The notes below the pieces were generated by a model. It was not told the origin of the DNA and ran no database searches. It saw only the letters and a list, made by a program, of their open reading frames with translations. The translations under genes were made by a program, and so were the position numbers. DNA of 64,000 bases, from positions 1 through 64,000 of IMG/VR virus record IMGVR_UViG_3300021962_000086; one strand, given 5' to 3'. This stretch comes from a virus. Shown piece after piece: positions 28,233 to 64,000 of this stretch; the first letter of the stretch is position 1; each line of letters begins with the position of its first letter.

Positions 28233-28240
28233 CTATTTAG
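28233..28240 (-). promoter_or_regulatory. T4-type late promoter
   Basis: Minus-strand CTAAATAG 26 bases before the ATG of the 162-aa exported protein. TAG is the stop codon of the nitrilase gene. Confidence 0.65.
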
Positions 28241-29069
28241 ATTCTTCAACATCTTCCAATTTTTCTACTTTTCTAGTTGGTAAAGTATAATCATAATAAA
28301 AATATTGTCTTCCATGTCTAGGAACACTCGTCTTCCAACCATCAATATGAACAAAACCACTCTCACTAGATGTTGGAAATTCTTCAATTACAGAATCATC
28401 TTCACCATCCCATTCCCATGGAGTGCAAGAATCTACAGTCAAAATAGGAATATTAGAACTCCATGCAGACATTCTTAAGAATGCATCATGCCACCTATCG
28501 AAAATTTCAAATGCGATAGGATCCTGATCTTTTCTACCATTTGTTGCATGAAATAGTAAATCTATGTATCCGATGTTTTGATATTGAGTTGTAATTGGAG
28601 CGTACTTTGATTCTTGCCATCCCCACAGATCATTGCAAATTAAACCTCCAGCAAATCCTTCATCACCAAAATCGAACATACTTAAAGTTTGCCATTCATG
28701 TCTACCTAAAGCAGACTCTCCACTCACAACCATAGTTTTTTTGGTTGCTGCACGAAACCAACCTTCATCATCGTAATGCCTGATTTGATTTCTAAAAACA
28801 TCACCATAAACTTCTTCCTCTTGAAACATTGTCCCAAGATGCAACCAAATTTTTGCGTCTTTTTGATGCGATTCAACCTCTTTTAACGCTTCTTTAACCT
28901 CATCAATTTTAGTTTCCCATCCCAACCATCCAGATAATGAACCTTCTGGAGTTAATAGATGTTGAACTTCATTTTCCTTCGCCCAATCAATTGCTTTTAA
29001 AATTTCCTGTTTATTTTTTTGAATATTTGTGCTTACAGGAATTTGGGCACCAGCAACTCTGATAGACAT
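28233..29069 (-). CDS. Nitrilase-superfamily carbon-nitrogen hydrolase
   Basis: A 278-aa enzyme of the nitrilase/amidase superfamily, which hydrolyses non-peptide C-N bonds. The catalytic triad can be read as Glu42 (LTPEGSLSGW), Lys110 or 111 (AATKKTMV) and Cys145 (GLICNDLWG). Length is normal for the family. Substrate cannot be told from the sequence. A host-derived metabolic gene is likely: it may help release nitrogen from amides, or process a product of the neighbouring accessory genes. Followed by the exported-protein genes and preceded by tRNA-Leu. Confidence 0.85.
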   Translation of the reverse strand: MSIRVAGAQIPVSTNIQKNKQEILKAIDWAKENEVQHLLTPEGSLSGWLGWETKIDEVKEALKEVESHQKDAKIWLHLGTMFQEEEVYGDVFRNQIRHYDDEGWFRAATKKTMVVSGESALGRHEWQTLSMFDFGDEGFAGGLICNDLWGWQESKYAPITTQYQNIGYIDLLFHATNGRKDQDPIAFEIFDRWHDAFLRMSAWSSNIPILTVDSCTPWEWDGEDDSVIEEFPTSSESGFVHIDGWKTSVPRHGRQYFYYDYTLPTRKVEKLEDVEESK

Positions 29070-43022: not shown

Positions 43023-43030
43023 TTATTTAT
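43023..43030 (-). promoter_or_regulatory. T4-type late promoter
   Basis: Minus-strand ATAAATAA, 27 bases before the ATG at 42996. It contains the TAA stop codon of the 554-aa carbamoyltransferase. Confidence 0.65.
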
Positions 43031-44687
43031 TAACAATAAAATCACCAATAACCAAAACATCGATGTTCATTTTTAGAAAAGATGAAATTGCATGATATGG
43101 AGTTTCTACGATTGGTTCTCCATTGTCGTTAAAAGATGTATTAAGAATCACTGGAGTTTCTAACCTACCCAACAAGTCATAAACTTTTGGATTTTGATCA
43201 GAGTTAACAGTTTGAATTCTGCAACTCTTATCCATATGAGTAATTGCGGGAATTTTGTCAGTCTTAGAAGTTTGGATATAGAGCATGTATGGAGTTATAA
43301 ATCCTTCCTCAAAATATTCAGAAACATCTTGCTCTCTAATAATTCCAGCAAAAGGTCTCCAAGACTCTCTATGTTTAACCCTCTCATTCAAAATATCTTT
43401 ATTTTCCGCAACAGCAGGACTCATGAATATTGATCTAGAACCTAATGCTCTGGGACCATGCTCAGATCTTCCCTGAAACCATCCAACAATTTTTTGATTT
43501 GATAGCATCACAGCAACTTCATTTGCATCATATGGCACATATGATAATCCAAATGCATCGAGATACTCTTTTATTTGATCATTAGAATAATCTCTTCCTA
43601 ACAAAGATATATTTTCTGGAAGATCTATGGTTTCATTCTCCTCAAAACATCCCCATGCTGCTGCACCAAAGTGAAGTCCAGCATCATCAGTAAATGGGGG
43701 AATGTGAATATTTTTAAATAATCCACTTTCTTTGATGAGGGTATTGGCAACAATATTGAGGAATGTGCCTCCAGCGAAACAAGTAGTTTCGTCTAAGTGA
43801 TATTTTCTCAATCCTTTCAAAAGACTTAGCATTCCATCTTCAAAACTCTTTTGAAGCCACCGTGCTCCTTCTTCTGGAGTGTCTGGTGGATTAAACCACC
43901 CACCTTGAGGAAATGTAATGTATGGGATGCTGTGATCAATTACTGAAAATCCAGATTCAAATCCACCCTTATATTTGTCTAGGGATCCATATGCAGACAA
44001 TCCCATAATTTTTCCAACAGACGAAATAAAGTCAGTCCGAGATTCTGTTTTTTTCTGCATCTTCCATGCATATAATCCAGAAGCAACATGTGAGTAATAA
44101 TTTCCAAAATTATTCAATTGTTGATCTGGCATATTATAGAATCTAAAAATCTTCTTTTCTTTATTAAAATATCCGATTGAATTATTTTCAACATAGGGAA
44201 TCTCACTCCTATATGGATCATAAAGTCCAGATCCACCACCATCAAATGTAAGAAATGTTCCCTCATTATATGGTGAGGTGAAAACAGTAGAAGATGCGTG
44301 AGCTAAATGGTGACCACAGAAACGAATCTTAGCGTTTGGAAAATGTGGTTTGATATTTTTAAAAGTTAGATTCTCATCATAATGAAATGGTACTGCAGTA
44401 TTATAAACGGTAACATAGTAAACTATATCAACATCCTTACCAGTTATCCCAGCATATTCTAAACAATGGTTAATAGATTTGTGAGGAAATTCTCCATCAT
44501 ACTTTATTCTACTAAGTCTTTCTTCATTAACACTACATATATGCTTTCCATGAATAAAGATTGTGCATCCAGAATCATGGATATCAGCTTCCGTCAACTT
44601 ACCAGTTTCGGAATTAGTTAAGTTTGCTGCGATAGGATGATTTATATCACCATTAAAATCAGCACCGTAAATACCAACAATAATCAT
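43023..44687 (-). CDS. NodU/CmcH-family O-carbamoyltransferase (divergent copy)
   Basis: A 554-aa enzyme that transfers a carbamoyl group from carbamoyl phosphate to a sugar hydroxyl. Family motifs: HHLAHA, TFDGGGSG, CFAGGTFLN, WFQGRSEHGPRALGSRSI, SWRPFAG, CRIQTV and LNTSFNDNGEPIVETP. It is well diverged from the two copies at 58635 and 61612, including a longer N-terminal part and a shorter core. The acceptor is unknown. Preceded by the gp32 terminator; it may have its own promoter. Confidence 0.85.
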   Translation of the reverse strand: MIIVGIYGADFNGDINHPIAANLTNSETGKLTEADIHDSGCTIFIHGKHICSVNEERLSRIKYDGEFPHKSINHCLEYAGITGKDVDIVYYVTVYNTAVPFHYDENLTFKNIKPHFPNAKIRFCGHHLAHASSTVFTSPYNEGTFLTFDGGGSGLYDPYRSEIPYVENNSIGYFNKEKKIFRFYNMPDQQLNNFGNYYSHVASGLYAWKMQKKTESRTDFISSVGKIMGLSAYGSLDKYKGGFESGFSVIDHSIPYITFPQGGWFNPPDTPEEGARWLQKSFEDGMLSLLKGLRKYHLDETTCFAGGTFLNIVANTLIKESGLFKNIHIPPFTDDAGLHFGAAAWGCFEENETIDLPENISLLGRDYSNDQIKEYLDAFGLSYVPYDANEVAVMLSNQKIVGWFQGRSEHGPRALGSRSIFMSPAVAENKDILNERVKHRESWRPFAGIIREQDVSEYFEEGFITPYMLYIQTSKTDKIPAITHMDKSCRIQTVNSDQNPKVYDLLGRLETPVILNTSFNDNGEPIVETPYHAISSFLKMNIDVLVIGDFIVNK

Positions 44688-52181: not shown

Positions 52182-55100
52182 TCAAATATATGTAGGTTCT
52201 CCGTCCTGACCACCGTAGGTAACGATGCTGAGTTCTCCAAGATCTTCGAGGGCGGGGATACTATTATACACCCTCATGGTGAATCCGTTAACAGTTCTGT
52301 CACTGATTCTTAACTCAACGATACCGCCTGGGAATGCATTGATGCCACTTCCGATACCGATGACTGCATAGTCTGTATCATTCATAGGATCAGCAAAGTT
52401 CACGGTGTAAATTCCAGTCGAAGTTTGAACAAGAGAACTGATGTTGTGGGAACGATCACCAGGAGTGTAGTCGTTGTTACCAACACCCAGATTGCTGTTC
52501 ATGTACCAGGAGGTAGCACGACCTTCAAACATTTGAGTATAGGTGCAAGTCTTAAGACCAGACAGGTTCTTGAACTCACCGACTCTATTTACCTTGTGGA
52601 AATCATGGTTAAAGACCTGAACCGAGTTACCCATGTAACCCATTGTGGTTCCGATACCAGCACCATAGTACAGAAGTTGAGGAGTATTCTCAGTGACGGT
52701 GATTTCAGTATAACTTCCAGTCTCAGTTACATTGTCACTAAACTGGTTGGGAGATGTTGTACCAAAACCAACGCCGAGACCATCAGGGGAATAGTAGAAT
52801 CTGATCGGGAAGTTTGCTTGCTGCGCAGCATTCTCAAAACGATATACTTGACCGACTTCAAACCTCAAGTAAGGTGCTTCATAACCTTGGATGTTGATGG
52901 TGGAATCAGATCCAACACCAATGTAACGATGTCTAGAAGACTTTGTACCGAAAGTAACAGGCAGAGGCAGGTACGGAAGTCTAGACTCTGTGTAGAGGTT
53001 CTTAGCGGTGTCTGCTGCACCCGTCAGTGCGGAGAAACTAGAAACAGAAGCAAAGTTAGCATTCAATGCTTGAGTTGCAACGCCAGCGAACGATGCAAAG
53101 GTAGCAAGTCCAGCAACAACTGCCTCAGAAGCAATGCCAGCAAGAGTAGCACGAGGAACTTCATCGACTGCAATGGTAACGATACCTGCAGAAACGGAAG
53201 AAACTGTAAGAGGACTGGTAAAGTTAATTGTACCAGCAGTACCAACTAAAGATCCATCTTCATTTACAATTACGCCAGATCCAGCAGCAACAATGTTGGT
53301 TAACTGAGATCCATCTCCAATGAATCTAGGAGCGGTTACATCATTGTAAACTGTAATAGTTGCATTTGTAGAAATTCCAAGTGCCAATGAAGCCTGAGTT
53401 GCAGAATTTGCAAGCAAAGCATTAGTGGCAGATTGAGCATTTGTTGCAAGACCAGCAACAGTAGCGTAATCGGAATAAGTTGCTCTCTCGGGGATAAAGG
53501 ATGGATCAAGATTGAGAGCGGTAGTAGCAAGACTTACCGAATCTGGACCAGTAATTGTGACAATACCAGCAGAGATTGGAGAAACTGTTAACTGACTTCC
53601 AAAATCAATTGTAGAAGCAGCACCAATAACAGAACCACTATCAAGAACCTCAACACCAGCACCGATAGCAGTGACTCCAGTCAGACCAGAACCATCACCG
53701 AAGAATTGTGCTGCAGTAATAATACCAGCTGTATTGACGCTAGCGACTGTGCCAACTCCACTAGGACCATCGTCAGCAGGTTTAGAGTATGCAACGAAAG
53801 AAACATTGGGTCTAGATGCTCTAATAAAGAGAGTCTGTCCAGTAGAAATACCAATGTTATCTACTTTAAAATCTTGAAGTGGTTGCAGACGAACACCGAA
53901 GACAATAAAGTCGGACGGTTTTACACTAGTGATGTCTCCAGATGCGATACCAACAGAAACAGCAGTCGGAGTATCGCCCCTGTTCGTGGCATGAACTGTT
54001 GCTAAACTGTTCTCAGTGGCATCAAGAATGGTCAATTCTCTATTGACATTGTTCGGGGGATCGTAACTAGAAGTCAAAGACTTGCTACGACCATGAACGA
54101 GAGCAGAATCTGCGGAAGTATTTCTAAAGAACTTAGTTGTATATGCAGAGAAGTTAATGCCAGGATCAAAAGAGTTGACGAAGATCTTATCGCCAGGTTT
54201 CATTGCAATGTTTTCAAGATGAGTTGCCTGACCAGGAACAATCTCAATACCATAAGCAATGTAATCGCTGTCTAAGAATCCAAAAGAACTAGAGAGTCCA
54301 ACAGAATAGTTCGACTTAAGATTTGTTTTATTAGAAACAGTAACGGTAACCTCTACGAGTTCTGGTGCTTCAAAGAGAAGCACGGGAGTTACAACTCCAC
54401 CTTGAAGACTCGTGACAAGATTTCTAGTTCTACCGAAAACATTATTATCAAATTGTAAAGTAGAAACTGTACGAGTAGGAGACCAATCAGAGGTACTTTC
54501 TACTAAAGAAGATCCATCGGCGTTACTTACATGTCTTACTCTGATGTAATAAGTTACTCCATAAAGAAGTGTTGCCTGTACTGTCTGTGTTTCAGCAGTA
54601 CTGTTTTCTCCAACGGAGGACCAAACAGTGCTAGAGAAAGCAGGATCTTCAGATACTTCAAACTCGATTGCTTTAAGTGTACCCGATGCAGAAACTCCAT
54701 TAAGAGGAGAATACGCACTAGATCTGAGGACAACGCCAGTAACATTATCAAGAACTATTCCTTCTATTGGATTTAAAACTGTTGGTTGTATCGCACCAAA
54801 TGCAGGGATATTAGTTCTAAACGAAGAAATACCAGAGAACTCAGATGTGTACGAAGTAAATGATGCGCCGTCAGCGTTAGAAATATGCTGAACCCTTACA
54901 TAATAAGTTTGAGCGGAAGAAAGATCTACCTCTTGTACGATTTGAGTGTTATTGGTAGGAGTATCATAAACAATATTGTTAAAGGAAGAATCTGTAGAAA
55001 CTTGGAATCTTACCTTCTTCAAGGTTCCAGATTCATATGCACCACCGACAGGAGTATATGCACTGGAAGTAAGAGCGATACCAGCCCTGAATACACCATC

Positions 55101-57131
55101 GCTAGCAACACCAACAATGCTAGGAGTGCTAATGCCGCCAGCAGTTGTTCCAATCGCTGCAGTTGGATTTAGATATGCTTGATTAGTAGGAGCATTGCCA
55201 AGGTTATATACCTGCGTGTGGAACAGGTAATTTGTCTCTGGGTACTGAGCATAAGGATATTGATCCCAAAGAGTTGCAGATGCATTTCTACTTCCACCAT
55301 CTCCAGTGACTGTACTCAACCAGTTCTTAACATCCCTAGAAGTAGCACTGGGGAATCTTTGCAGATAACATGCGAGTAAACCTGCAACTACAGGAGAAGC
55401 GGCGGATGTTCCGTTGAAGTATGCATCGTAATGGTTGTAACCATACTCAGCAAAAGAATTGTATCTATAGTAATCTTGGTATCCAGAGGTAGGAGATCCT
55501 GCTGCAAGCATGTCATCGGCAGGAGCCCACACATCGATGCCAGGACCGTAGTTGGAGTAAGATGCCTTTCTTTCTTTCGGTCCACTATTATACTGAACAT
55601 AATCATCAAGAGCACCAACAGTAATAACAGGATAGAACTCATCGTATCCAGTAATAACTGGAACAAGTGGATCACTATCATCAATAATTGGAGTAGCAGT
55701 GTATCCGACACCCATCGGATTCATCCACTCCTTGCTTCCCATCGGGCACATATATTGCCCATAGTTGGTAAACTCAGGGCGAGTATCTCTGACAAAGTAC
55801 CATCTATCGTCGCAAGCATCAAGTCTAGAAGGATCATCAGTACCAACACCAATTCTCTGGTCATTGTTACCAGCAGCACAAACATGGATGACTCCTTCAT
55901 CCATCATTTCTTTTCCTGCTGCATCAATTGCTGCACTTCTAGCAGAAGATGTCCAAGAACGATATGCTCCGCTAACTTGGTTGTTGAAACCATAGACTAC
56001 AGTTCTAGCATCAATAGGATTGGTGGGATAACCGTAGTTAAAGTAGAGATAGTTTTGTGTTCCTCTCCACCTAGTATAGTGACTATTATATGCTCTAGCA
56101 GCAGCTTGATAACCCCAACTACTATTAACGATCGTTGGTTTCTTTACTCCAAGAGTAGGATCTACTGGTTTATGTCTGTGGAATAATTTAACCAGATCAT
56201 AAGCTTCTTCTTGACCAAGACCAACATTACCAGATACTGTAGGTACGGACCAAATGAGTGACTTAAATGCTAAACCAAATGCCTTACCTGCAGCAACAGA
56301 GGCAGCAGCAGTACCATGACCACTAGTTAAGTTTACATAAGAACTTCTGCCCATACCTGCTCTATCAGCAGTGTAAGAACCATTATTGATATTAACTGTA
56401 CCGATGCTTGCAAACTGGGAGGATCTTTGTGAAGAAAATTCCCACCACTCAATCGCCTTATCGGTGGCAATACCAGTGACTCCATCCCATCTAGTGTAGG
56501 TATAGTTATTGGTTACGGTAAACCAAGTAGGGTCGATGAGCAGAGGACCATCAAGAACAATGTCTCTTACTCTGCTTGTTCCATCATCATTTCTAAACTC
56601 TGGGTGTGCCGCGAAAACACCAGAGTCCATGACAACAATGTCAACATTGCTGCCATCGTAGACATACTCATAGGCAACTCCATCAGGACTGATCTGTTGA
56701 GGAGCGATGTACCCATAAATGTTATTGGGATGAGCATCTCCATAAGTGGAGAATCCAGTTCTATATACACCCCAGTTTGTTCTATTAACTTCCCCAATGG
56801 TGCTACCAATACTGGTAATATATCGATATGTCTTTACTTTATCTCCACCAAATCTATCCTGAACAGTGGCATGAACAGGTTCAGGATACAACTCGGGGTT
56901 ATCCCTATGAGACAACTCAATCCATGCAATATCAGGATGATTGGCAAGTGTATCTGCTTCCTCTTCCGTTAACTCGTAAGTAGAACGAGTTGGACTATGA
57001 TCTTTTGAGTTAGTGCAGCAGACATGACGATCAGGTACACATTCCTCACATGAAGAGAAGGTGAGGAGATTATGAATTCTATGCCATGCTTCAGGGCTGG
57101 TTGCACTAATGGTATATCTCTTGAGAGTCAT
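52182..57131 (-). CDS. Giant virion protein with subtilisin-like S8 protease domain
   Basis: A 1649-aa protein. The N-terminal about 80 residues resemble a propeptide and carry two Cys pairs (SCEEC, CC). Residues about 160-610 are an S8 subtilisin domain: Asp169 (VVMDSGV), His272 (SGHGTAAASVAAG), Asn422 (CAAGNND) and Ser576 (NGTSAASPVVAG), a full catalytic set. Two fibronectin-like repeats follow (about 650-930), then fibre-like repeats (FFGDGSGLTGV, FIGDGSQLTNI) as in phage tail fibres. It is probably a tail fibre or spike that cuts host surface protein or itself. Late promoter at 57161-57168. Confidence 0.85.
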   Translation of the reverse strand: MTLKRYTISATSPEAWHRIHNLLTFSSCEECVPDRHVCCTNSKDHSPTRSTYELTEEEADTLANHPDIAWIELSHRDNPELYPEPVHATVQDRFGGDKVKTYRYITSIGSTIGEVNRTNWGVYRTGFSTYGDAHPNNIYGYIAPQQISPDGVAYEYVYDGSNVDIVVMDSGVFAAHPEFRNDDGTSRVRDIVLDGPLLIDPTWFTVTNNYTYTRWDGVTGIATDKAIEWWEFSSQRSSQFASIGTVNINNGSYTADRAGMGRSSYVNLTSGHGTAAASVAAGKAFGLAFKSLIWSVPTVSGNVGLGQEEAYDLVKLFHRHKPVDPTLGVKKPTIVNSSWGYQAAARAYNSHYTRWRGTQNYLYFNYGYPTNPIDARTVVYGFNNQVSGAYRSWTSSARSAAIDAAGKEMMDEGVIHVCAAGNNDQRIGVGTDDPSRLDACDDRWYFVRDTRPEFTNYGQYMCPMGSKEWMNPMGVGYTATPIIDDSDPLVPVITGYDEFYPVITVGALDDYVQYNSGPKERKASYSNYGPGIDVWAPADDMLAAGSPTSGYQDYYRYNSFAEYGYNHYDAYFNGTSAASPVVAGLLACYLQRFPSATSRDVKNWLSTVTGDGGSRNASATLWDQYPYAQYPETNYLFHTQVYNLGNAPTNQAYLNPTAAIGTTAGGISTPSIVGVASDGVFRAGIALTSSAYTPVGGAYESGTLKKVRFQVSTDSSFNNIVYDTPTNNTQIVQEVDLSSAQTYYVRVQHISNADGASFTSYTSEFSGISSFRTNIPAFGAIQPTVLNPIEGIVLDNVTGVVLRSSAYSPLNGVSASGTLKAIEFEVSEDPAFSSTVWSSVGENSTAETQTVQATLLYGVTYYIRVRHVSNADGSSLVESTSDWSPTRTVSTLQFDNNVFGRTRNLVTSLQGGVVTPVLLFEAPELVEVTVTVSNKTNLKSNYSVGLSSSFGFLDSDYIAYGIEIVPGQATHLENIAMKPGDKIFVNSFDPGINFSAYTTKFFRNTSADSALVHGRSKSLTSSYDPPNNVNRELTILDATENSLATVHATNRGDTPTAVSVGIASGDITSVKPSDFIVFGVRLQPLQDFKVDNIGISTGQTLFIRASRPNVSFVAYSKPADDGPSGVGTVASVNTAGIITAAQFFGDGSGLTGVTAIGAGVEVLDSGSVIGAASTIDFGSQLTVSPISAGIVTITGPDSVSLATTALNLDPSFIPERATYSDYATVAGLATNAQSATNALLANSATQASLALGISTNATITVYNDVTAPRFIGDGSQLTNIVAAGSGVIVNEDGSLVGTAGTINFTSPLTVSSVSAGIVTIAVDEVPRATLAGIASEAVVAGLATFASFAGVATQALNANFASVSSFSALTGAADTAKNLYTESRLPYLPLPVTFGTKSSRHRYIGVGSDSTINIQGYEAPYLRFEVGQVYRFENAAQQANFPIRFYYSPDGLGVGFGTTSPNQFSDNVTETGSYTEITVTENTPQLLYYGAGIGTTMGYMGNSVQVFNHDFHKVNRVGEFKNLSGLKTCTYTQMFEGRATSWYMNSNLGVGNNDYTPGDRSHNISSLVQTSTGIYTVNFADPMNDTDYAVIGIGSGINAFPGGIVELRISDRTVNGFTMRVYNSIPALEDLGELSIVTYGGQDGEPTYI

Positions 57132-57202: not shown

Positions 57203-57994
57203 ATGAACATCGTCACTGGTGCCAACGGTTTTATTGGCAAACACTTTGTCAAATCTATGGACAATGTGTTGGAAATTGATCTCGATAATTGCGAAGAATT
57301 TCTAGAGCGTTTCACCCGTTGGGAAGATGTGGATATGATTATCCATATGGGAGCATTGTCATCCACAACGGAGAAGAATGTTGGAATGATCTACAAATAT
57401 AATATTGATTATAGCATTAGACTTTTTGAGAAAGCAATCAAGCATGGCATCCCTGTGAAGTATGCCTCGTCTGCTTCAGTGTATGGTAACCAAGATGGTG
57501 TTATCAATCCTCTTAATTATTATGCCCTGTCTAAGATTACTGTGGACTATTGGGTGAAAGAAAACATGGACCGTTTCTCTCATGTGCAGGGGTTCAGATT
57601 CTTTAATGTGTATGGCAGCGGAGAGACCCACAAGGGCGATCAGGCAAGTCTTGTAAGCAAGTTTAACTGGCAGTCCCAAACAGGTAGGATCCACCCCTTT
57701 GCAGACTCTTCTAAGGTGTGGAGAGACTATGTATGGGTGGGAGATATTGTTAATGTTGTTCTGTCTAACAATGCGGGCAGCGGTATCTTTGATCTTGGTA
57801 CTGGCGAACCCATCACCATCCAAATGGTTGCGGATTTGATTGCACAAAAAACAAAGGCTGTAGTGGAAGAAGTTCCCTTTCCACCCAACCTTATCGGCAA
57901 GTATCAGTTTTACACCAAGGCAGACATGTCCTGGTTAGATTATAAGTTTAAGACAGTAGAAGAATATGTCAATCGCCAGCGTGAATTCGAATAG
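57203..57994 (+). CDS. hldD: ADP-L-glycero-D-manno-heptose 6-epimerase-like (HldD)
   Basis: A 263-aa short-chain epimerase. Rossmann motif TGANGFIG (residues 5-12), Tyr107xxxLys111 (YYALSK), and HldD-specific segments: FRFFNVYGSGETHKGDQASLV, RDYVWVGDIVNVV, GIFDLGTGEPITIQMVADL and IGKYQFYTKADMSWL. HldD turns ADP-D-glycero-beta-D-manno-heptose into the L-glycero form. Bacterial HldD has about 310 aa. It is on the opposite strand from the kinase and transferase genes and converges on the cupin gene with a 26-base overlap. Confidence 0.85.
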   Translation: MNIVTGANGFIGKHFVKSMDNVLEIDLDNCEEFLERFTRWEDVDMIIHMGALSSTTEKNVGMIYKYNIDYSIRLFEKAIKHGIPVKYASSASVYGNQDGVINPLNYYALSKITVDYWVKENMDRFSHVQGFRFFNVYGSGETHKGDQASLVSKFNWQSQTGRIHPFADSSKVWRDYVWVGDIVNVVLSNNAGSGIFDLGTGEPITIQMVADLIAQKTKAVVEEVPFPPNLIGKYQFYTKADMSWLDYKFKTVEEYVNRQREFE

Positions 57995-58328
57995 AATCTG
58001 AGTCAAAGTGTTGCGTTGAGAACTCAAACAATTCGGAGTCTTCCAACGCAACCATCTGATGTCTGAGACCTACAGGAATATGAAACTTATCTCCTGGTTC
58101 TAGAACCAGAGTCTCAGCATCTTCAAGACCGTCCACCTCTCCATAGAACAATAAGATGAGACCACTTTGTAAGTAAAAGGTCTCATCTTTTATATTATGA
58201 TAGTGCCAAGAACATCTCTTTCCTTTCTCAAAGAAGAGAAGTTTGCCACAGTACTGTTCATTATTTACAATCCACTTCTCGTATCCCCAACCTTTGGGAA
58301 CCTCTTTAATAGTCTGAGAAGAATTCAT
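57969..58328 (-). CDS. Cupin protein, sugar-phosphate isomerase-like
   Basis: A 119-aa single cupin: WSWHYHNIKDETFYLQSGLI-type segment (CSWHYHNIKDETF), then LEPGDKFHIPVGLRHQM. The three metal ligands can be read as His-x-His and a later His, with Glu. Resembles WbuC or the cupin part of mannose-6-phosphate isomerases. Start ATG 58328 is chosen for the GGGAG nine bases upstream. Last gene of the leftward island. Role in sugar synthesis is inferred from its position. Confidence 0.65.
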   Translation of the reverse strand: MNSSQTIKEVPKGWGYEKWIVNNEQYCGKLLFFEKGKRCSWHYHNIKDETFYLQSGLILLFYGEVDGLEDAETLVLEPGDKFHIPVGLRHQMVALEDSELFEFSTQHFDSDSIRIHAGD

Positions 58329-58638
58329 TTGCATTGACTCCCTTATCATCTATGTAGTAATCACCCGATGGTTTTCCTAGGTGAAGTTCATGAAACTTAC
58401 AACCCCATTCTTTAAGTTGATTGTATGTAAAGTCATAGAAATTATTATGAGAAAGCATGCGAGAGTTTTTAAACCTTCCCATACCTCTTGCTGTAAGATA
58501 GGTAATGTAATGCCCCTCATCATATAGTTGATTAATTCTATCAATTCTTTCTTGGATGGGGGCAGCACCAGTATACCTAGTTTCGTCAGTAGATCCAGGA
58601 GTACAGATAGTACCATCTATGTCAATAGTATATCTCAT
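58306..58638 (-). CDS. Short HAD-type phosphatase
   Basis: A 110-aa HAD protein: motif I DIDGTIC (Asp5 or Asp7 nucleophile), THR-like ARG in LTARGMGR, and the last motif DYYIDDKGVNA. It is small and lacks a cap domain, similar to polynucleotide or sugar-phosphate phosphatases. In the heptose pathway a bisphosphate phosphatase (GmhB) is needed; this gene could fill that role, but GmhB is usually about 190 aa. ATGA-coupled to the carbamoyltransferase. Confidence 0.65.
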   Translation of the reverse strand: MRYTIDIDGTICTPGSTDETRYTGAAPIQERIDRINQLYDEGHYITYLTARGMGRFKNSRMLSHNNFYDFTYNQLKEWGCKFHELHLGKPSGDYYIDDKGVNANEFFSDY

Positions 58639-60470
58639 TCGGAATCATCCACTAAACTATAGTTAATCTTCCCTCTTTTACCAGCGTTTGAATTTTCTGA
58701 GATGTACAGCATCTTTTTTTGGTTGGGGAAGTAAGTGTATTCTAATTCCGATCTTTGCAAAGTTTCAATCACATCATCAACTGTTTCACAAATAGTATCT
58801 CCACCTAGATTAAATGAAGTATTAAGTAGCATTGGAATACCAGTTCTCTTGTAAAACTCTTCGATCAAATCATAGTAATTTTTATTCTGTTCTCTAGATA
58901 CTGTTTGAATTCTACAAGTTTTATCGACATGCAAAACTCCAGGAATTTTATCCCAAACTTTCTCATGAGCATTGACGGCAAACATCATGAATGGACTTTC
59001 ATCAAGACCACGCATATCAAACCAGTCATGAACATGATCTAATAGTACGGATGCTGCAAAGGGTCTCCATAACTCACGACCTTTCTTTTTGTTCATTATA
59101 AGTTGTGCATTTGGATTCCTAGGATCAAATAACAATGATCTATTACCAAGAGCACGAGGTCCCTGTTCGGATCTCCCCTGAAAGATTCCTACTGGATTAC
59201 CATTCTCAATAACATCAACTACTTCAGAAAGAGTTGTGTCATACGCGCTTTCTGGAATATCATGTTGTCTTTCAATTCCAAGATACAAAGATTTCAAAGG
59301 ATAAATTTCCTTTGATTGTGTATGCTGTCTCCATTCAAGCATTGCTTGACCAGCAGATAAACCAGCATCATAACAAATTGGTTCCACAAACAACTTACCA
59401 CCTTCAGGCAAATACTTTAGATACTCATAGTTAGCAACACAATTTAGAGCACACCCACCAGTCAGAACAATGTTCTTACATCCAGTAAGTTCCACTGCCT
59501 TTTTAATGAGATCAATCATATAAGACTCAAAGTCTTTTTGCATCCTGTAAGCAAGATCACAATTAACAGAAAATTTAATTCTAGGATCCTCAACTTGATC
59601 TGGAGCAGTAAGTGCTGGACCTGATCTAACTATATCATTTTCATCTCTACTACATCTCTTCACACCATCATTGTATAGTTTATATAAATCTATTTTTCCT
59701 TCAGGGTAAATGTATTCATAGTAATCGATCAGTACTCCATTAGAAACTCTAACAAATAATTCTTCATTAACTTCTCCGTTAATTACAAATGGTTTTATGT
59801 TTGGATTATCCTTTCCATATGGAGCGAGTCCCATTGTCTTTCCAGACGCAGTATAATTAAATCCAATGTATTCACTAGCAGCAGCATAAGCCATACCAAT
59901 TCCAGTGGTAGGATTTTCTACTTGCTCTTCGGTTTCAATAAAAACTGGCGCATATCTTTGATGTAGCAATTCAAAGTTGCATGGATAGGATGCTTTATAA
60001 ATGCTTTCTACCTCATGACCACCACCAATAATTGCTCCAGCACCATCCACAACTACAACTGCCGCTTCTTCAAATCCAGAGTTATAGAATCCAATAGATG
60101 CGTGAGAAAGATGGTGTTGGTTTTGAAATGATTTGCATTTATACTTATTTTTTCTCATAACTTTTGATGCTACAAGAAGACAGATATCGATGGAATCATC
60201 GACCATCTTCTTCTCCATTGGTATCTCAATGGTAGTATAAGCAATCAAAGAGTCTTTAGAAATAAATGCGTTGCCATATAAAAGCGACAACAAAGGATAT
60301 GAATCATGCTTTCTATGGCTAAGTCTTTCTTCCTCAATCATCCATTTGACTTTACCGTCTACAAGATAGCAAACAGATGCATCGTGAGCAATATTCATAG
60401 AAAAAATACTATTCACATTTTCTGGCAAAATTTTTACAGCAGACTGATTTTGTAAGGAGATTTCTTTCAT
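58635..60470 (-). CDS. NodU/CmcH-family O-carbamoyltransferase
   Basis: A 611-aa enzyme. Motifs: MNIAHDASVCYLVDGKV, HHLSHASIGFYNSG, VVVVDGAGA, ASGKTMGLAPYG, LTGGCALNCVANY, FQGRSEQGPRALGNRSLLF, LWRPFAAS, CRIQTV and LNTSFNLGGDTICET. Clearly paralogous to the 607-aa enzyme at 61612, with the same C-terminal WFDMRGLDESPF pattern. It needs carbamoyl phosphate and probably modifies a sugar hydroxyl. ATGA-type junctions on both sides. Confidence 0.9.
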   Translation of the reverse strand: MKEISLQNQSAVKILPENVNSIFSMNIAHDASVCYLVDGKVKWMIEEERLSHRKHDSYPLLSLLYGNAFISKDSLIAYTTIEIPMEKKMVDDSIDICLLVASKVMRKNKYKCKSFQNQHHLSHASIGFYNSGFEEAAVVVVDGAGAIIGGGHEVESIYKASYPCNFELLHQRYAPVFIETEEQVENPTTGIGMAYAAASEYIGFNYTASGKTMGLAPYGKDNPNIKPFVINGEVNEELFVRVSNGVLIDYYEYIYPEGKIDLYKLYNDGVKRCSRDENDIVRSGPALTAPDQVEDPRIKFSVNCDLAYRMQKDFESYMIDLIKKAVELTGCKNIVLTGGCALNCVANYEYLKYLPEGGKLFVEPICYDAGLSAGQAMLEWRQHTQSKEIYPLKSLYLGIERQHDIPESAYDTTLSEVVDVIENGNPVGIFQGRSEQGPRALGNRSLLFDPRNPNAQLIMNKKKGRELWRPFAASVLLDHVHDWFDMRGLDESPFMMFAVNAHEKVWDKIPGVLHVDKTCRIQTVSREQNKNYYDLIEEFYKRTGIPMLLNTSFNLGGDTICETVDDVIETLQRSELEYTYFPNQKKMLYISENSNAGKRGKINYSLVDDSE

Positions 60471-61261
60471 GAGTTCAAAATAGAATCAACATCTTCCATG
60501 GTCATAGTGTATGTACCAGGATTTTGAACGGCAATTGCAGCTGCTCTATTTGCAAAAGCAATTGCTTCTTCCATGACTGGAAGTTGAATGTGATAAAACA
60601 CAAGGGCAGCGAGAAAGGTATCACCTGCGCCAGACACATCGAACACACGCTCAATTTCTTTTACAGGATATTGAGTCTTGTTCCAGATGCATCCATTAGC
60701 ACCCATGGTTACAATTAAGTTAGTAGCTTTGGGGATAGTATTAGGATCTAATGCTTCAAATTCTTTTTGATTAATCTTGTAGATGACATTATCATATTCA
60801 GACAGGAGTCTGGTTGCTTTCGTATCTACAAATACTTTGATCTTAGGATTTCTACTGGCGACATATGAAATAACTTCAGAAACATTAAGAAACCCTTTGT
60901 TATAATCGGAGATTACAATGGCATCATAGATCTCATGCATCAATGCCATCTGAAGTTGTGCCTGATGGATTGGTTTTATATCAGGTTCTTCATCTACACG
61001 AACGATCTGCTGATTAGTACGCTCATCAATGTATCTTGTCTTAGTAATCTTCTCTTTATTAGTTACGAAGTTTACATTAATACCAAGAGACTTTAAATTT
61101 TCACAGACATTGCCTGCCATACCAGGAGCAGATTGCTTCTGACGATGCTTAAGAACAGGTACGGGTGCCTCTGGACTCAAGCGATTGCATGATCCATAAA
61201 TCCATTCATCGGTACAACTATCCCCGATCAATAATACATTGTATTGTCTTGCTAGTCGCAT
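60467..61261 (-). CDS. HldE kinase domain (heptose-7-phosphate kinase-like)
   Basis: A 264-aa PfkB/ribokinase-family kinase. GDSCTDEWIYGSCNRLSPEAPVPV and GMAGNVCENLKSLG match the N-terminal domain of HldE (RfaE), which phosphorylates D-glycero-D-manno-heptose 7-phosphate. Catalytic Asp214 in DVSGAGDTF. It is a separate gene here and lies after the nucleotidyltransferase; in most bacteria the two are fused in the order kinase-transferase. ATGA coupling with the carbamoyltransferase after it. Confidence 0.85.
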   Translation of the reverse strand: MRLARQYNVLLIGDSCTDEWIYGSCNRLSPEAPVPVLKHRQKQSAPGMAGNVCENLKSLGINVNFVTNKEKITKTRYIDERTNQQIVRVDEEPDIKPIHQAQLQMALMHEIYDAIVISDYNKGFLNVSEVISYVASRNPKIKVFVDTKATRLLSEYDNVIYKINQKEFEALDPNTIPKATNLIVTMGANGCIWNKTQYPVKEIERVFDVSGAGDTFLAALVFYHIQLPVMEEAIAFANRAAAIAVQNPGTYTMTMEDVDSILNS

Positions 61262-61619
61262 AGTCTTCTAATCTATCAAAGAATTTTAATTCTGCTGAGT
61301 GCATCGACCCAATGACTGTCTTTCCTTTCCAGTCAGATCCTACTACCATTATATCAGGTTGTATGGTTTTAACCAAGTCTTCTAATTCTTGATCGCTGGA
61401 AAAAGAAAGTACTTTGTCTACAGTTTTGAGAGACTGTAACATTATGATTCTATCTATGCATGAATTAATAGGTCTTGTCGGACCTTTCATCTCCTTCACC
61501 CTACTATCGGTATCGATAGCAACGATAACCTCATCGCCAAGAGACCTTGCATAAGAAAGAAGTGCAAGGTGCCCACGATGAAGGATATCAAATGTACCGT
61601 TGACAAATACTCTAGTCAT
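61218..61619 (-). CDS. HldE nucleotidyltransferase domain (heptose-1-phosphate adenylyltransferase-like)
   Basis: A 133-aa cytidylyltransferase-fold enzyme. VNGTFDILHRGH contains HxGH (residues 14-17, HRGH), followed by KGPTRPIN and GSDWKGKTVIGS. It matches the C-terminal HldE (RfaE) domain that makes ADP-heptose from heptose 1-phosphate. Overlaps the kinase gene by 44 bases in another frame and follows the 607-aa carbamoyltransferase by eight bases of overlap. Confidence 0.85.
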   Translation of the reverse strand: MTRVFVNGTFDILHRGHLALLSYARSLGDEVIVAIDTDSRVKEMKGPTRPINSCIDRIIMLQSLKTVDKVLSFSSDQELEDLVKTIQPDIMVVGSDWKGKTVIGSMHSAELKFFDRLEDYATSKTIQCIIDRG

Positions 61620-63435
61620 TCTTAACAGTAATCAGTTTACCATACTCAGGAAGATACAAATACTCGATACCAGAGTTAGCAAGAGTACGCACAGCGTCGT
61701 CAAGGGTCTCAACCAAAGGTTCACCACCAAGATTGAAACTGGTGTTAAACAGAATCGGACAACCTGTAGCATCATAGAATGCTTTGATGAGTCTGTAGTA
61801 GTTTTCATTCTGCTTTTCGGTAACAGTTTGGATTCTACATGTGCCATCAACATGAATGATAGAGGGAATCTTTTCTTCGATTCCAGGTTGACAATTCACA
61901 GCGTACATCATGTGAGGAGTCTCTTCCATTCCACGAAGATCAAACCACTCATGAACATGCTCTTGAAGCATTGATCCAGCAAACGGACGGAAGAATTCAC
62001 GACGCTTAATTTTATTTACATGATCCTTACCATCAGGATCACGGGGATCATAGAGAATAGAACGGTTACCAAGAGCACGAGGACCAGATTCAGATCTACC
62101 TTGGAATAAAGCAACAATATTTTTGTCAGTAATCAAACCAACAATATCTTCGTCCTTTGCTTCGGTAACTTCTCCACCATACTTGTCAGCGGTATCAATG
62201 ATACTATTAATATCATATGTATATTTTGGACCAAGGTATAGACTTTCTGCGTATGGTTTAATATTTGTGTCTCCAGTTGTAAAGTGATGCCAGAATAAAG
62301 CAGCACCGATAGCAGTTCCAGCATCATTACTTACTGGTTCAACATAAAGACTGATACCTTCGTCTTTTAATTCATCGAGATAATAATAATTAGCAACGCA
62401 ATTTAGACCATACCCCCCAGACAAAGCAACATTTTTAATTTGGGTAAGGTTAACCGCAAACCGAATTAAATCAAGAACCTGTTTTTGAGTTTCTTTTTGA
62501 ACTTTATATGAAAGATCTTTACGATTCTGAAGTCTTACCAAATCTTTACGATCAATGTCTATTGGAGTCGCCAACTCTTTATTAAGTTGATCACAAACGA
62601 GTGCTCCATTAGGATATGTTGGAGTAATAAACTCTTGATTTACTTGTTTATAGTGAGGAAGAAACTCATTAGACTTACCAAAAATGTCTGGGAGATTCTC
62701 ATTTTCTTTTCCATAAGGGAAAAGTCCCATAGTTTTACCTGCTTCAATGGAATCAAATCCATTGTACCGCGTAACTGCCTCATAAGATTTTACAATTCCA
62801 GCAGAAGAGTCCGCAATCAGAATACAACTTGATTCATCAGAAGTATCAAACTGTTTATTATCAAATGCAGTTTCAACGAGGAGTGGTCTAAGACCATTTC
62901 CACCTAAGTGCCTATACTTTGATTCTATTTTTGCAGGATATGAGCAATTAAAAACAGTTTCTGTTTCCCAAAGTGTCATTGGGCGACCGTCAACAGAATG
63001 ACTATAAAAAGTTCCTGCACCATCAACGACTACAGAAACCGCTTTATCAAAACCAGAACGATAGAATGCACACGCAGCGTGAAGCTTGTGATGAATATTT
63101 CCAAGATCAATTACTTGGGGGTGAGTTTGAGTTTCTGGATTATAATTTACATCACTACGAATCAAACCCAACTTTCTAGCTAGTGAAGTATATGCATCTT
63201 CACCACAGTAATCTAACTTGGCAGCACTCTCTGCCAGTAGTTGAGTATGGGCAACCACTAAGTAGTCCAATTTATCAGTATATTCTTTTATTTTAAGAAT
63301 GGATAAAAGAGGTGCTCCATCGTATTTCATACGAGAAAATCTTTCTTCCTCGATAGCAAATACTACTTCCCCATTTTTTAACAAGCAGACACCTGCATTA
63401 TGTCCGCGAGTAATACCAGCAATCCATTGAGTCAT
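61612..63435 (-). CDS. NodU/CmcH-family O-carbamoyltransferase
   Basis: A 607-aa enzyme. Motifs: GITRGHNAGVCLLKNGEV, HHKLHAACAFYRSG, VVVDGAGTF, LSGGYGLNCVANYYY, FQGRSESGPRALGNRSIL, FFRPFAGS, CRIQTV and FNTSFNLGGEPLVET. Paralogue of the 611-aa enzyme. It belongs to the glycan island and is ATGA-coupled to the GT9-like gene upstream. Acceptor unknown. Confidence 0.9.
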   Translation of the reverse strand: MTQWIAGITRGHNAGVCLLKNGEVVFAIEEERFSRMKYDGAPLLSILKIKEYTDKLDYLVVAHTQLLAESAAKLDYCGEDAYTSLARKLGLIRSDVNYNPETQTHPQVIDLGNIHHKLHAACAFYRSGFDKAVSVVVDGAGTFYSHSVDGRPMTLWETETVFNCSYPAKIESKYRHLGGNGLRPLLVETAFDNKQFDTSDESSCILIADSSAGIVKSYEAVTRYNGFDSIEAGKTMGLFPYGKENENLPDIFGKSNEFLPHYKQVNQEFITPTYPNGALVCDQLNKELATPIDIDRKDLVRLQNRKDLSYKVQKETQKQVLDLIRFAVNLTQIKNVALSGGYGLNCVANYYYLDELKDEGISLYVEPVSNDAGTAIGAALFWHHFTTGDTNIKPYAESLYLGPKYTYDINSIIDTADKYGGEVTEAKDEDIVGLITDKNIVALFQGRSESGPRALGNRSILYDPRDPDGKDHVNKIKRREFFRPFAGSMLQEHVHEWFDLRGMEETPHMMYAVNCQPGIEEKIPSIIHVDGTCRIQTVTEKQNENYYRLIKAFYDATGCPILFNTSFNLGGEPLVETLDDAVRTLANSGIEYLYLPEYGKLITVKND

Positions 63436-64000
63436 TTTCCAAATCCTTTAGGTTCACAACAAGTTTTAGTATTTTTTTCTTGGTTAATATTTTCGTTGGA
63501 ATATTTTTTTGGTTTTCCAAGACGCTTTCTACACGAAGCAATTACTTTTTTGATATCTTCTTCTGTCATCTCCATGCATTCATCGTTCATCATATCTTGA
63601 TAGTCTTCCATTGTCAACCTAATGGGAGAAAAAATTCTTTTCTCTGCACCAAGATCAATAATATCAAACATTGGATCGTTTGGATATGAAATATTTTCAG
63701 GATAAGTGGATCCAATTACAGCAGTGACTGTAGTACCAACTGATTTGGCAATGTGTTGACCAACGGAATCACAACCTAAGAAATGATCTGCTTGTTCAAT
63801 AATGCCTGCCCAAACACGGATGTCAGCTTGAGGCCAAGCACATGGAATCTTGCTAGTATCGACATCAACTGGAAACTGAAACTCACTCATTATGACAACA
63901 CCATAATCTTCTCTAAGATTATTAATAATATCTACAATATAACTTAGATGAAAACTTCTAGAAGAAGGATCAATAATATATTCACCTTCAACTTGAACTC
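63432..64000 (-). CDS. GT9/heptosyltransferase-like protein (partial)
   Basis: Partial: the frame stays open to the right edge of the window without a stop. The visible C-terminal part has VVIMSEFQFPVD, DIRVWAGIIEQADHFLGCDSVGQHIAKSVGTTVTAVIGST and PENISYP. This fits the C-terminal nucleotide-sugar-binding half of family 9 glycosyltransferases (heptosyltransferases). The C-terminus is Lys-rich with two Cys. The start codon lies outside the window; ATG 63890 is internal. It probably uses a nucleotide-activated sugar such as ADP-heptose. Confidence 0.65.
   Translation of the reverse strand, partial: VQVEGEYIIDPSSRSFHLSYIVDIINNLREDYGVVIMSEFQFPVDVDTSKIPCAWPQADIRVWAGIIEQADHFLGCDSVGQHIAKSVGTTVTAVIGSTYPENISYPNDPMFDIIDLGAEKRIFSPIRLTMEDYQDMMNDECMEMTEEDIKKVIASCRKRLGKPKKYSNENINQEKNTKTCCEPKGFGK

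Follow-up and report, generated by a model that had tools for sequence, protein, structure and literature searches.

The window analyzed here (the whole 64,000-nucleotide stretch, positions 1 to 64,000 of the viral IMG/VR record IMGVR_UViG_3300021962_000086, 68,614 bp) ends in an island of eight genes (57203-64000) from enzyme families that make ADP-heptose, transfer heptose and carbamoylate sugars. The cassette is probably, though by no means certainly, a glycosylation module that T4-like cyanophages express late and keep linked to their tail-fibre genes. In it, ADP-heptose would be made, transferred and carbamoylated, likely onto the phage's own fibre or adhesin. More tentatively, a cupin may have displaced the isomerase GmhA to give a self-sufficient ADP- (or GDP-) heptose pathway, with carbamoylated heptose on the phage's own fibres or adhesins amounting to virion O-heptosylation. 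The virus is assigned to the cyanomyoviruses from its sequence, because its baseplate hub protein is nearest to those of T4-like Synechococcus phages.

In the proposed route, with activities predicted from family membership, the cupin would act as the isomerase in GmhA's stead, followed by an HldE-type kinase, a small HAD protein serving as 7-phosphatase in the stead of GmhB, an HldE-type nucleotidyltransferase and finally HldD. The resulting ADP-heptose would be used by a GT9-family transferase, and NodU/CmcH enzymes would add O-carbamoyl groups, as is thought for WapO on Pseudomonas core heptose. The acceptor would most likely be the phage's own tail fibre or Gly-rich adhesin.

This set of genes was already known and is not new. 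Gene clusters T4-GC 304, 305, 307 and 308, with three others, were found to co-occur and termed lipopolysaccharide (LPS) genes by Sullivan in 2010, with the possibility of 'stuffer DNA' left open (PMC3037559), and heptose-related LPS synthesis genes were named in another cyanophage in a 2020 announcement (PMC7378029). Comparison with other cyanophages, as proposed in an earlier sequence-only reading of the window, finds the cassette annotated in P-SSM2, S-SSM7, S-CAM1, S-CAM3 and Sf-FS3. The new content is the case for displacement of GmhA by a cupin and the evidence of late co-expression with tail-fibre genes, which make a long-standing puzzle testable: marine cyanophages carry 'LPS genes' though the LPS of their hosts lacks heptose.

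Gene order, selection and tail-fibre linkage

All of the genes named in the sequence-only reading (HldD-like epimerase, separate HldE-type kinase and nucleotidyltransferase, HAD phosphatase, cupin, two NodU/CmcH enzymes and a GT9-like protein) are present in the island (Table 1), and its family assignments are borne out by profiles, matches in the Protein Data Bank (PDB) and the GT9 fold. Its view of nearly all of them as one overlapping leftward operon also holds: seven genes on the minus strand form a single operon, with overlaps of 4-44 bp between neighbours, in the order GT9-like, carbamoyltransferase 2, nucleotidyltransferase, kinase, carbamoyltransferase 1, HAD and cupin, and are convergent with the HldD-like gene on the plus strand. 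The GT9-like gene is cut by the window edge and is whole in the source record.

The cassette genes are under purifying selection. Ratios of nonsynonymous to synonymous substitution rates (dN/dS) between the window and a related locus, L008, are 0.06-0.10 for the HldD, cupin, HAD, kinase, nucleotidyltransferase and GT9 genes and 0.21 for carbamoyltransferase 2. Carbamoyltransferase 1, which is missing from several relatives including L008, gave 0.14 against locus L009 and 0.16 against L013, with dS saturated.

To the right of the island lie genes for a tail assembly chaperone (PF16778), a Gly/Cys-rich adhesin-like protein (PF21722) and tail fibres. The gene to its left has a 1649-aa product that combines a subtilisin domain with tail-fibre segments. 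A tail-fibre-type gene is found within 8 kb upstream of the transferase gene in 47 of the 49 loci that reach far enough. Moreover, a late-promoter-like motif, NNTAAATA, is present at -48..-20 before the GT9 gene (17/44), the adhesin gene (18/31) and the chaperone gene (16/26), and before 1 of 127 internal cassette genes. This motif is close to the published late motif of cyanomyoviruses, NATAAATA (PMC2984593). No NATAAATA late promoter was found before the island genes in the window, where the motif takes the form CTAAATA; its bare count is not above chance, and it is informative in relatives through its position before the first genes. The placement of NNTAAATA before the GT9, adhesin and chaperone genes therefore indicates co-expression with virion parts.

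The sequence-only reading had proposed a carbamoylated heptose glycan for either the host surface, for example in superinfection exclusion, or the virion. Its glycan is retained here, and the tail-fibre neighbourhood together with the shared late motif favours virion decoration over a change of host LPS as the presumed destination, leaving superinfection exclusion, which is expected early in infection, less favoured. Only the genomic context points to the virion, since the chemistry has LPS and protein precedents alike: known GT9 acceptors are LPS (WaaC/F) and protein (TibC) (PMC4358343).

Table 1. Genes of the island, with their assignments and the evidence for each.
Feature	Position	Strand	Evidence
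HldD-type ADP-glyceromanno-heptose 6-epimerase, 263 aa	57203..57994	+	TIGR02197 E 1.8e-54
Cupin, 126 aa, proposed GmhA replacement (sedoheptulose-7-P isomerase)	57969..58349	-	profile, AlphaFold2 (AF2) fold, co-occurrence
Small HAD phosphatase, 110 aa, proposed GmhB-type 7-phosphatase	58306..58638	-	TIGR01689 2e-7
NodU/CmcH carbamoyltransferase 1, 611 aa, optional member	58635..60470	-	PF16861 3.8e-55, PF02543 1e-22
HldE-type D-glycero-D-manno-heptose 7-phosphate kinase, 264 aa	60467..61261	-	TIGR02198 1.5e-46
HldE-type heptose 1-phosphate nucleotidyltransferase, 133 aa	61218..61619	-	TIGR02199 6.8e-33
NodU/CmcH carbamoyltransferase 2, 607 aa, core partner of GT9	61612..63435	-	PF16861 1.3e-60
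GT9-like heptosyltransferase, 339 aa	63432..64000, on to record position 64451 (L002:8433-9452)	-	AF2 fold

Three features of the surroundings are recorded separately. The subtilisin domain (PF00082, 4.8e-24) is N-terminal in the tail-fibre-like 1649-aa protein (52182-57131, minus strand), and a similar protein occurs in P-SSM2 (PSSM2_297) and in IMG/VR relatives. A carbon-nitrogen hydrolase (PF00795, 1.5e-6) is encoded amid virion genes (28233-29069, minus strand). Genes for DUF6445 and 2OG-Fe(II) oxygenase proteins lie inside the cassettes of many relatives, often between the tail chaperone and GT9 genes (for example L004:5519-6217, L004:6987-7601, L056:12749-13366 and L056:14587-15198), which raises the possibility of hydroxylation ahead of glycosylation in those phages; none is present in the window's island.

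Proposed heptose synthesis and role of the cupin

The epimerase shares 38% BLASTP identity with E. coli HldD, which is also its top PDB match (1eq2, 3e-40). In the alignment with this SDR-fold enzyme, S116, Y140, K144, H177 and the second base K178 (E. coli HldD numbering) are all kept, and K144 of the phage epimerase, the counterpart of E. coli K178, is invariant in 13 phage homologues. The protein is filed as HldD-like because its TIGR02197 score (185 bits) is below the equivalog cut-off (274.6 bits). For both the kinase and the nucleotidyltransferase, an HldE domain is by far the best family match; the best non-HldE family reaches only 1e-12 with the kinase, as against 1.5e-46 for TIGR02198. 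The kinase matches the D-beta-D-heptose 7-phosphate kinase 4e84 in the PDB, and its catalytic GAGD motif is invariant in 17 phage homologues. The nucleotidyltransferase has an HxGH motif and additionally matches glycerol-3-phosphate cytidylyltransferase. The small HAD protein matches PDB entries 9iqw (1e-15) and 1xpj (4e-11). In two distant relatives, L056 and L082, the kinase and nucleotidyltransferase are fused into one protein in the HldE order and a textbook GmhB replaces the small HAD; L082 is a compact HldE-HldD-cupin-GmhB operon, and L056 is similar. These GmhB-containing cassettes with fused HldE, HldD and cupin are new here.

GmhA, which converts sedoheptulose-7-phosphate to D-glycero-D-manno-heptose-7-phosphate in the first step of the pathway, was searched for as a SIS-fold protein matching TIGR00441 or PF13580. 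The sequence-only reading had proposed to look to the right of the window for GmhA and further glycosyltransferases, and neither was found there. No GmhA or SIS_2 match occurs anywhere in the window's own record, and no GmhA was found in the five complete cyanophage genomes (P-SSM2, S-SSM7, S-CAM1, S-CAM3 and Sf-FS3), in 80 cupin loci, or in 25 viral records of up to 193 kb; S. elongatus, the sole cyanobacterium looked at and included as a control, likewise had no match. The absence of GmhA from every related phage examined, with the cupin apparently taking its place, had not been foreseen. The gene with the RefSeq label 'phosphoheptose isomerase' in cassette phages was considered and rejected as a GmhA candidate, because it is the HAD gene, whose matches are to capsule-type HAD phosphatases. 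Likewise, phrog_1238 ('phosphoheptose isomerase') is the HAD phosphatase, which has relatives in hundreds of further phages (many infect E. coli or Acinetobacter), and phrog_7851 ('cysteine dioxygenase') is the cupin. Both labels, in PHROG and RefSeq, appear to be wrong.

The cupin is found in 35 of 50,697 phage records, a set identical to the 31 cyanophage-type records that have an HldE kinase (35 kinase matches, once one Salmonella chromosome, one faecal record and two uncultured records of 735 kb are set aside) together with four cyanophage-type HddA records; many of the 35 are near-duplicates, representing by name about 11 isolate lineages and six single-cell viruses. GmhA occurs in 13 phage records, none of which has the cupin, and among the five HddA records of faecal phages, four carry GmhA and lack the cupin. 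In phage Bellamy, a 71% identical cupin is flanked by HddA and an HddC-like gene. Occurring in HldE records as well as in HddA records, the cupin tracks a step that both the ADP and the GDP route contain. In IMG/VR, heptose kinase or nucleotidyltransferase genes lie within 6 kb of the cupin in 68 of 80 loci. The 12 exceptions comprise four loci at contig edges, in each of which HldD adjoins the cupin, three with a kinase farther off in the record and five that are unexplained. These 80 loci are the nearest to the window's cupin among more than 570, so that distant cupins are under-sampled. By eye, cupins outside heptose clusters (L120:7674-8045, L144:5277-5633 and L146:7986-8342) adjoin nuclease-like genes, GroEL or a NeuB-type cluster. 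Bacterial homologues are uninformative: few were found (in 4 of 398 Pseudomonadota genomes, of which one has it on a phage-type contig with the whole cassette), and the search near the others found no heptose gene.

The best PDB match of the cupin profile is the D-lyxose isomerase 2y0o (8e-5), and D-lyxose, L-ribose and D-mannose isomerases are among its best PDB sequences. The AF2 model gives D-lyxose isomerases (7nzp, 7nzo and 2y0o) as best fold matches, at about 2e-8 to 4e-8 and 25-26% identity. Residues H49, H51, K54, E56 and H97 are invariant and correspond to H75, H77, K86, E88 and H143 of Thermofilum TsLI, so that the cupin fold, the metal site of three His and one Glu and the K-x-E lysine of D-lyxose isomerase-type enzymes are all present. 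Such isomerases convert a ketose to a manno-configured aldose (D-fructose to D-mannose, D-xylulose to D-lyxose), which is the stereochemistry of the GmhA reaction. From family and genomic context, the cupin therefore appears to replace GmhA as sedoheptulose-7-phosphate isomerase. The open-licence literature yielded no paper that proposes either a cupin isomerase or heptose on the virion. If the cupin is the missing isomerase, a GmhA-unrelated enzyme would carry out the first step of nucleotide-heptose synthesis, two misleading database labels would be corrected, and phage surface chemistry would be tied to the sedoheptulose-7-phosphate pool of a photosynthetic host.

Transferase and carbamoyltransferases

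The AF2 model of the GT9-like protein (mean confidence score, pLDDT, 85) is of the GT-B type and has GT9 enzymes as all of its top 30 PDB fold matches, including Veillonella 3tov (5e-10), TibC (4rap/4rb4, 1e-9), WaaF (1psw, 1e-8) and WaaC (1e-7); this assignment, which rests on a predicted structure, is new here. By sequence, the protein has no PDB match, and a GT9-profile hmmsearch of PDB sequences gave nothing useful. It scores 14.1 bits with PF01075, below the gathering cut-off of 22 bits, and 23 of 32 family members match that profile (E up to 1, best 0.0017). The donor-site residues D228 and H233 align with WaaC D261 and H266. Among 84,980 bacterial and archaeal genomes, the family occurs at nine loci (L066-L074), all in marine metagenome-assembled genomes (MAGs). 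These contigs, including L070 and L072 with a Neomarinimicrobiota MAG among them, are probably misbinned phage; L067 holds the full cassette and is clearly phage.

A carbamoyltransferase gene lies directly downstream of GT9 in all 44 loci. The N- and C-terminal domains (PF02543 and PF16861) of the carbamoyltransferases are both over the cut-off, and carbamoyltransferase 2 matches 7xb6 (1e-52) and TobZ (1e-45) in the PDB. WapO (PA5005) is a putative carbamoyltransferase of Pseudomonas core heptose (PMC8005017). A third NodU/CmcH carbamoyltransferase gene (43023-44687, minus strand) lies outside the island and adjoins the gene for a single-strand DNA-binding protein.

Alternative explanations and relation to known systems

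Several observations weigh against a virion heptosylation module built around a cupin isomerase. None of the island's hidden Markov model scores reaches the NCBIfam equivalog cut-offs, and the proteins are therefore regarded as divergent, shortened family members. Cupins vary widely in function, and the resemblance to lyxose isomerases is distant (8e-5, 25%). Five cupin contigs belong to records that lack a heptose kinase; four of these contigs are 7-15 kb fragments, and the record of L146 is 56 kb. The HAD family is widespread in phages that lack the cupin. In the transferase, the first-loop D13 of WaaC seemingly has no counterpart; by eye, a Gly-Arg (GAGR) stands there, in a region outside the hhalign alignment. 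Membership in the TibC-type (BAHT) group was rejected, as no invariant Cys quartet exists in 32 homologues, and BAHT protein heptosyltransferases such as TibC require a four-cysteine iron-finger motif (PMC4358343). The linkage of transferase and tail genes is partly inherited synteny, so its occurrences are not independent events, and S-SM2, S-T4 and Bellamy hold the sugar-nucleotide genes in polysaccharide-type clusters that lack this transferase, so that different phages may use heptose differently.

The last point also keeps host LPS among the possible acceptors. ADP-heptose and the GT9/carbamoyltransferase pair could alter the LPS or outer surface of the host, so that superinfection is blocked, for instance, or adsorption to debris avoided; the WaaC/WaaF/TibC-type fold and the LPS-core precedent of WapO agree with this, and heptose added to the LPS of marine Synechococcus would be visible, because that LPS lacks it. 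The neighbouring tail-fibre, adhesin and chaperone genes, the late motif (superinfection exclusion usually requires early expression) and the lack of a flippase, polymerase or lipid-linked glycosyltransferase among the genes to the right make this a possible but less probable account. Similar doubt attaches to the idea that the host provides D-glycero-D-manno-heptose-7-phosphate and the cupin performs another step, such as a later epimerization: the many activities of the cupin fold and the five kinase-less contigs would fit, whereas the sharing of the cupin by ADP- and GDP-heptose cassettes, its exclusion from GmhA records, the invariant lyxose-isomerase residues and the lack of a GmhA match in S. 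elongatus do not. That the kinase, nucleotidyltransferase and HldD work on a different sugar or alditol phosphate is improbable; the low scores and the cytidylyltransferase match would allow it, but the HldE and HldD models are many orders of magnitude ahead of all other families, fused HldE occurs with GmhB in distant cassettes, and the second-base Lys of HldD is kept.

Carbamoylation and glycosylation of DNA are known from other phages, and the sugar or carbamoyl group might be destined for DNA bases. This is very improbable here, as the transferase matches GT9 and not a DNA glucosyltransferase, a thymidylate synthase-family gene is present with no hydroxymethylase among the genes examined, and a review finds no evidence of modified nucleotides or DNA glycosylation in cyanomyoviruses (PMC2984593). 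The proposal, raised by Sullivan, of non-functional stuffer DNA for headful packaging is contradicted by dN/dS values of 0.06-0.21 against L008; with catalytic residues intact and gene order kept in dozens of contigs, its probability is close to negligible, and it was rejected.

The cassette has counterparts in several known systems. The cyanophage 'LPS gene' clusters (T4-GC 303-308) of P-SSM2, S-SSM7, S-CAM1, S-CAM3 and Sf-FS3 have the same genes in nearly the same order with adjoining tail-fibre genes, although S-CAM1, S-CAM3 and P-SSM2 have one carbamoyltransferase at this place and the window has two; earlier accounts of them offered no mechanism. The bacterial-type HldE/HldD route likewise uses an HldE-type kinase and nucleotidyltransferase and an HldD with the full catalytic set, whereas the phage cassette has a cupin and no GmhA, in most phages a small HAD for GmhB, and a split HldE. 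The GDP-D-glycero-D-manno-heptose pathway (HddA, HddC) of Bellamy shares the cupin and HAD family, with a GHMP-type kinase and a guanylyltransferase where the window's cassette has HldE. The D-lyxose/D-mannose cupin isomerases TsLI and YdaE share the fold, metal ligands and K-x-E motif of the phage cupin, but are longer and are not known to act on heptose phosphates. TibC, a protein O-heptosyltransferase, and WaaC and WaaF share the predicted fold and donor-site Asp/His with the phage GT9-like protein, which belongs to a marine-phage family and differs in having no iron-finger cysteines and apparently no first-loop Asp. Finally, WapO, of NodU type, resembles the phage carbamoyltransferases by description, with LPS core heptose as its putative acceptor.

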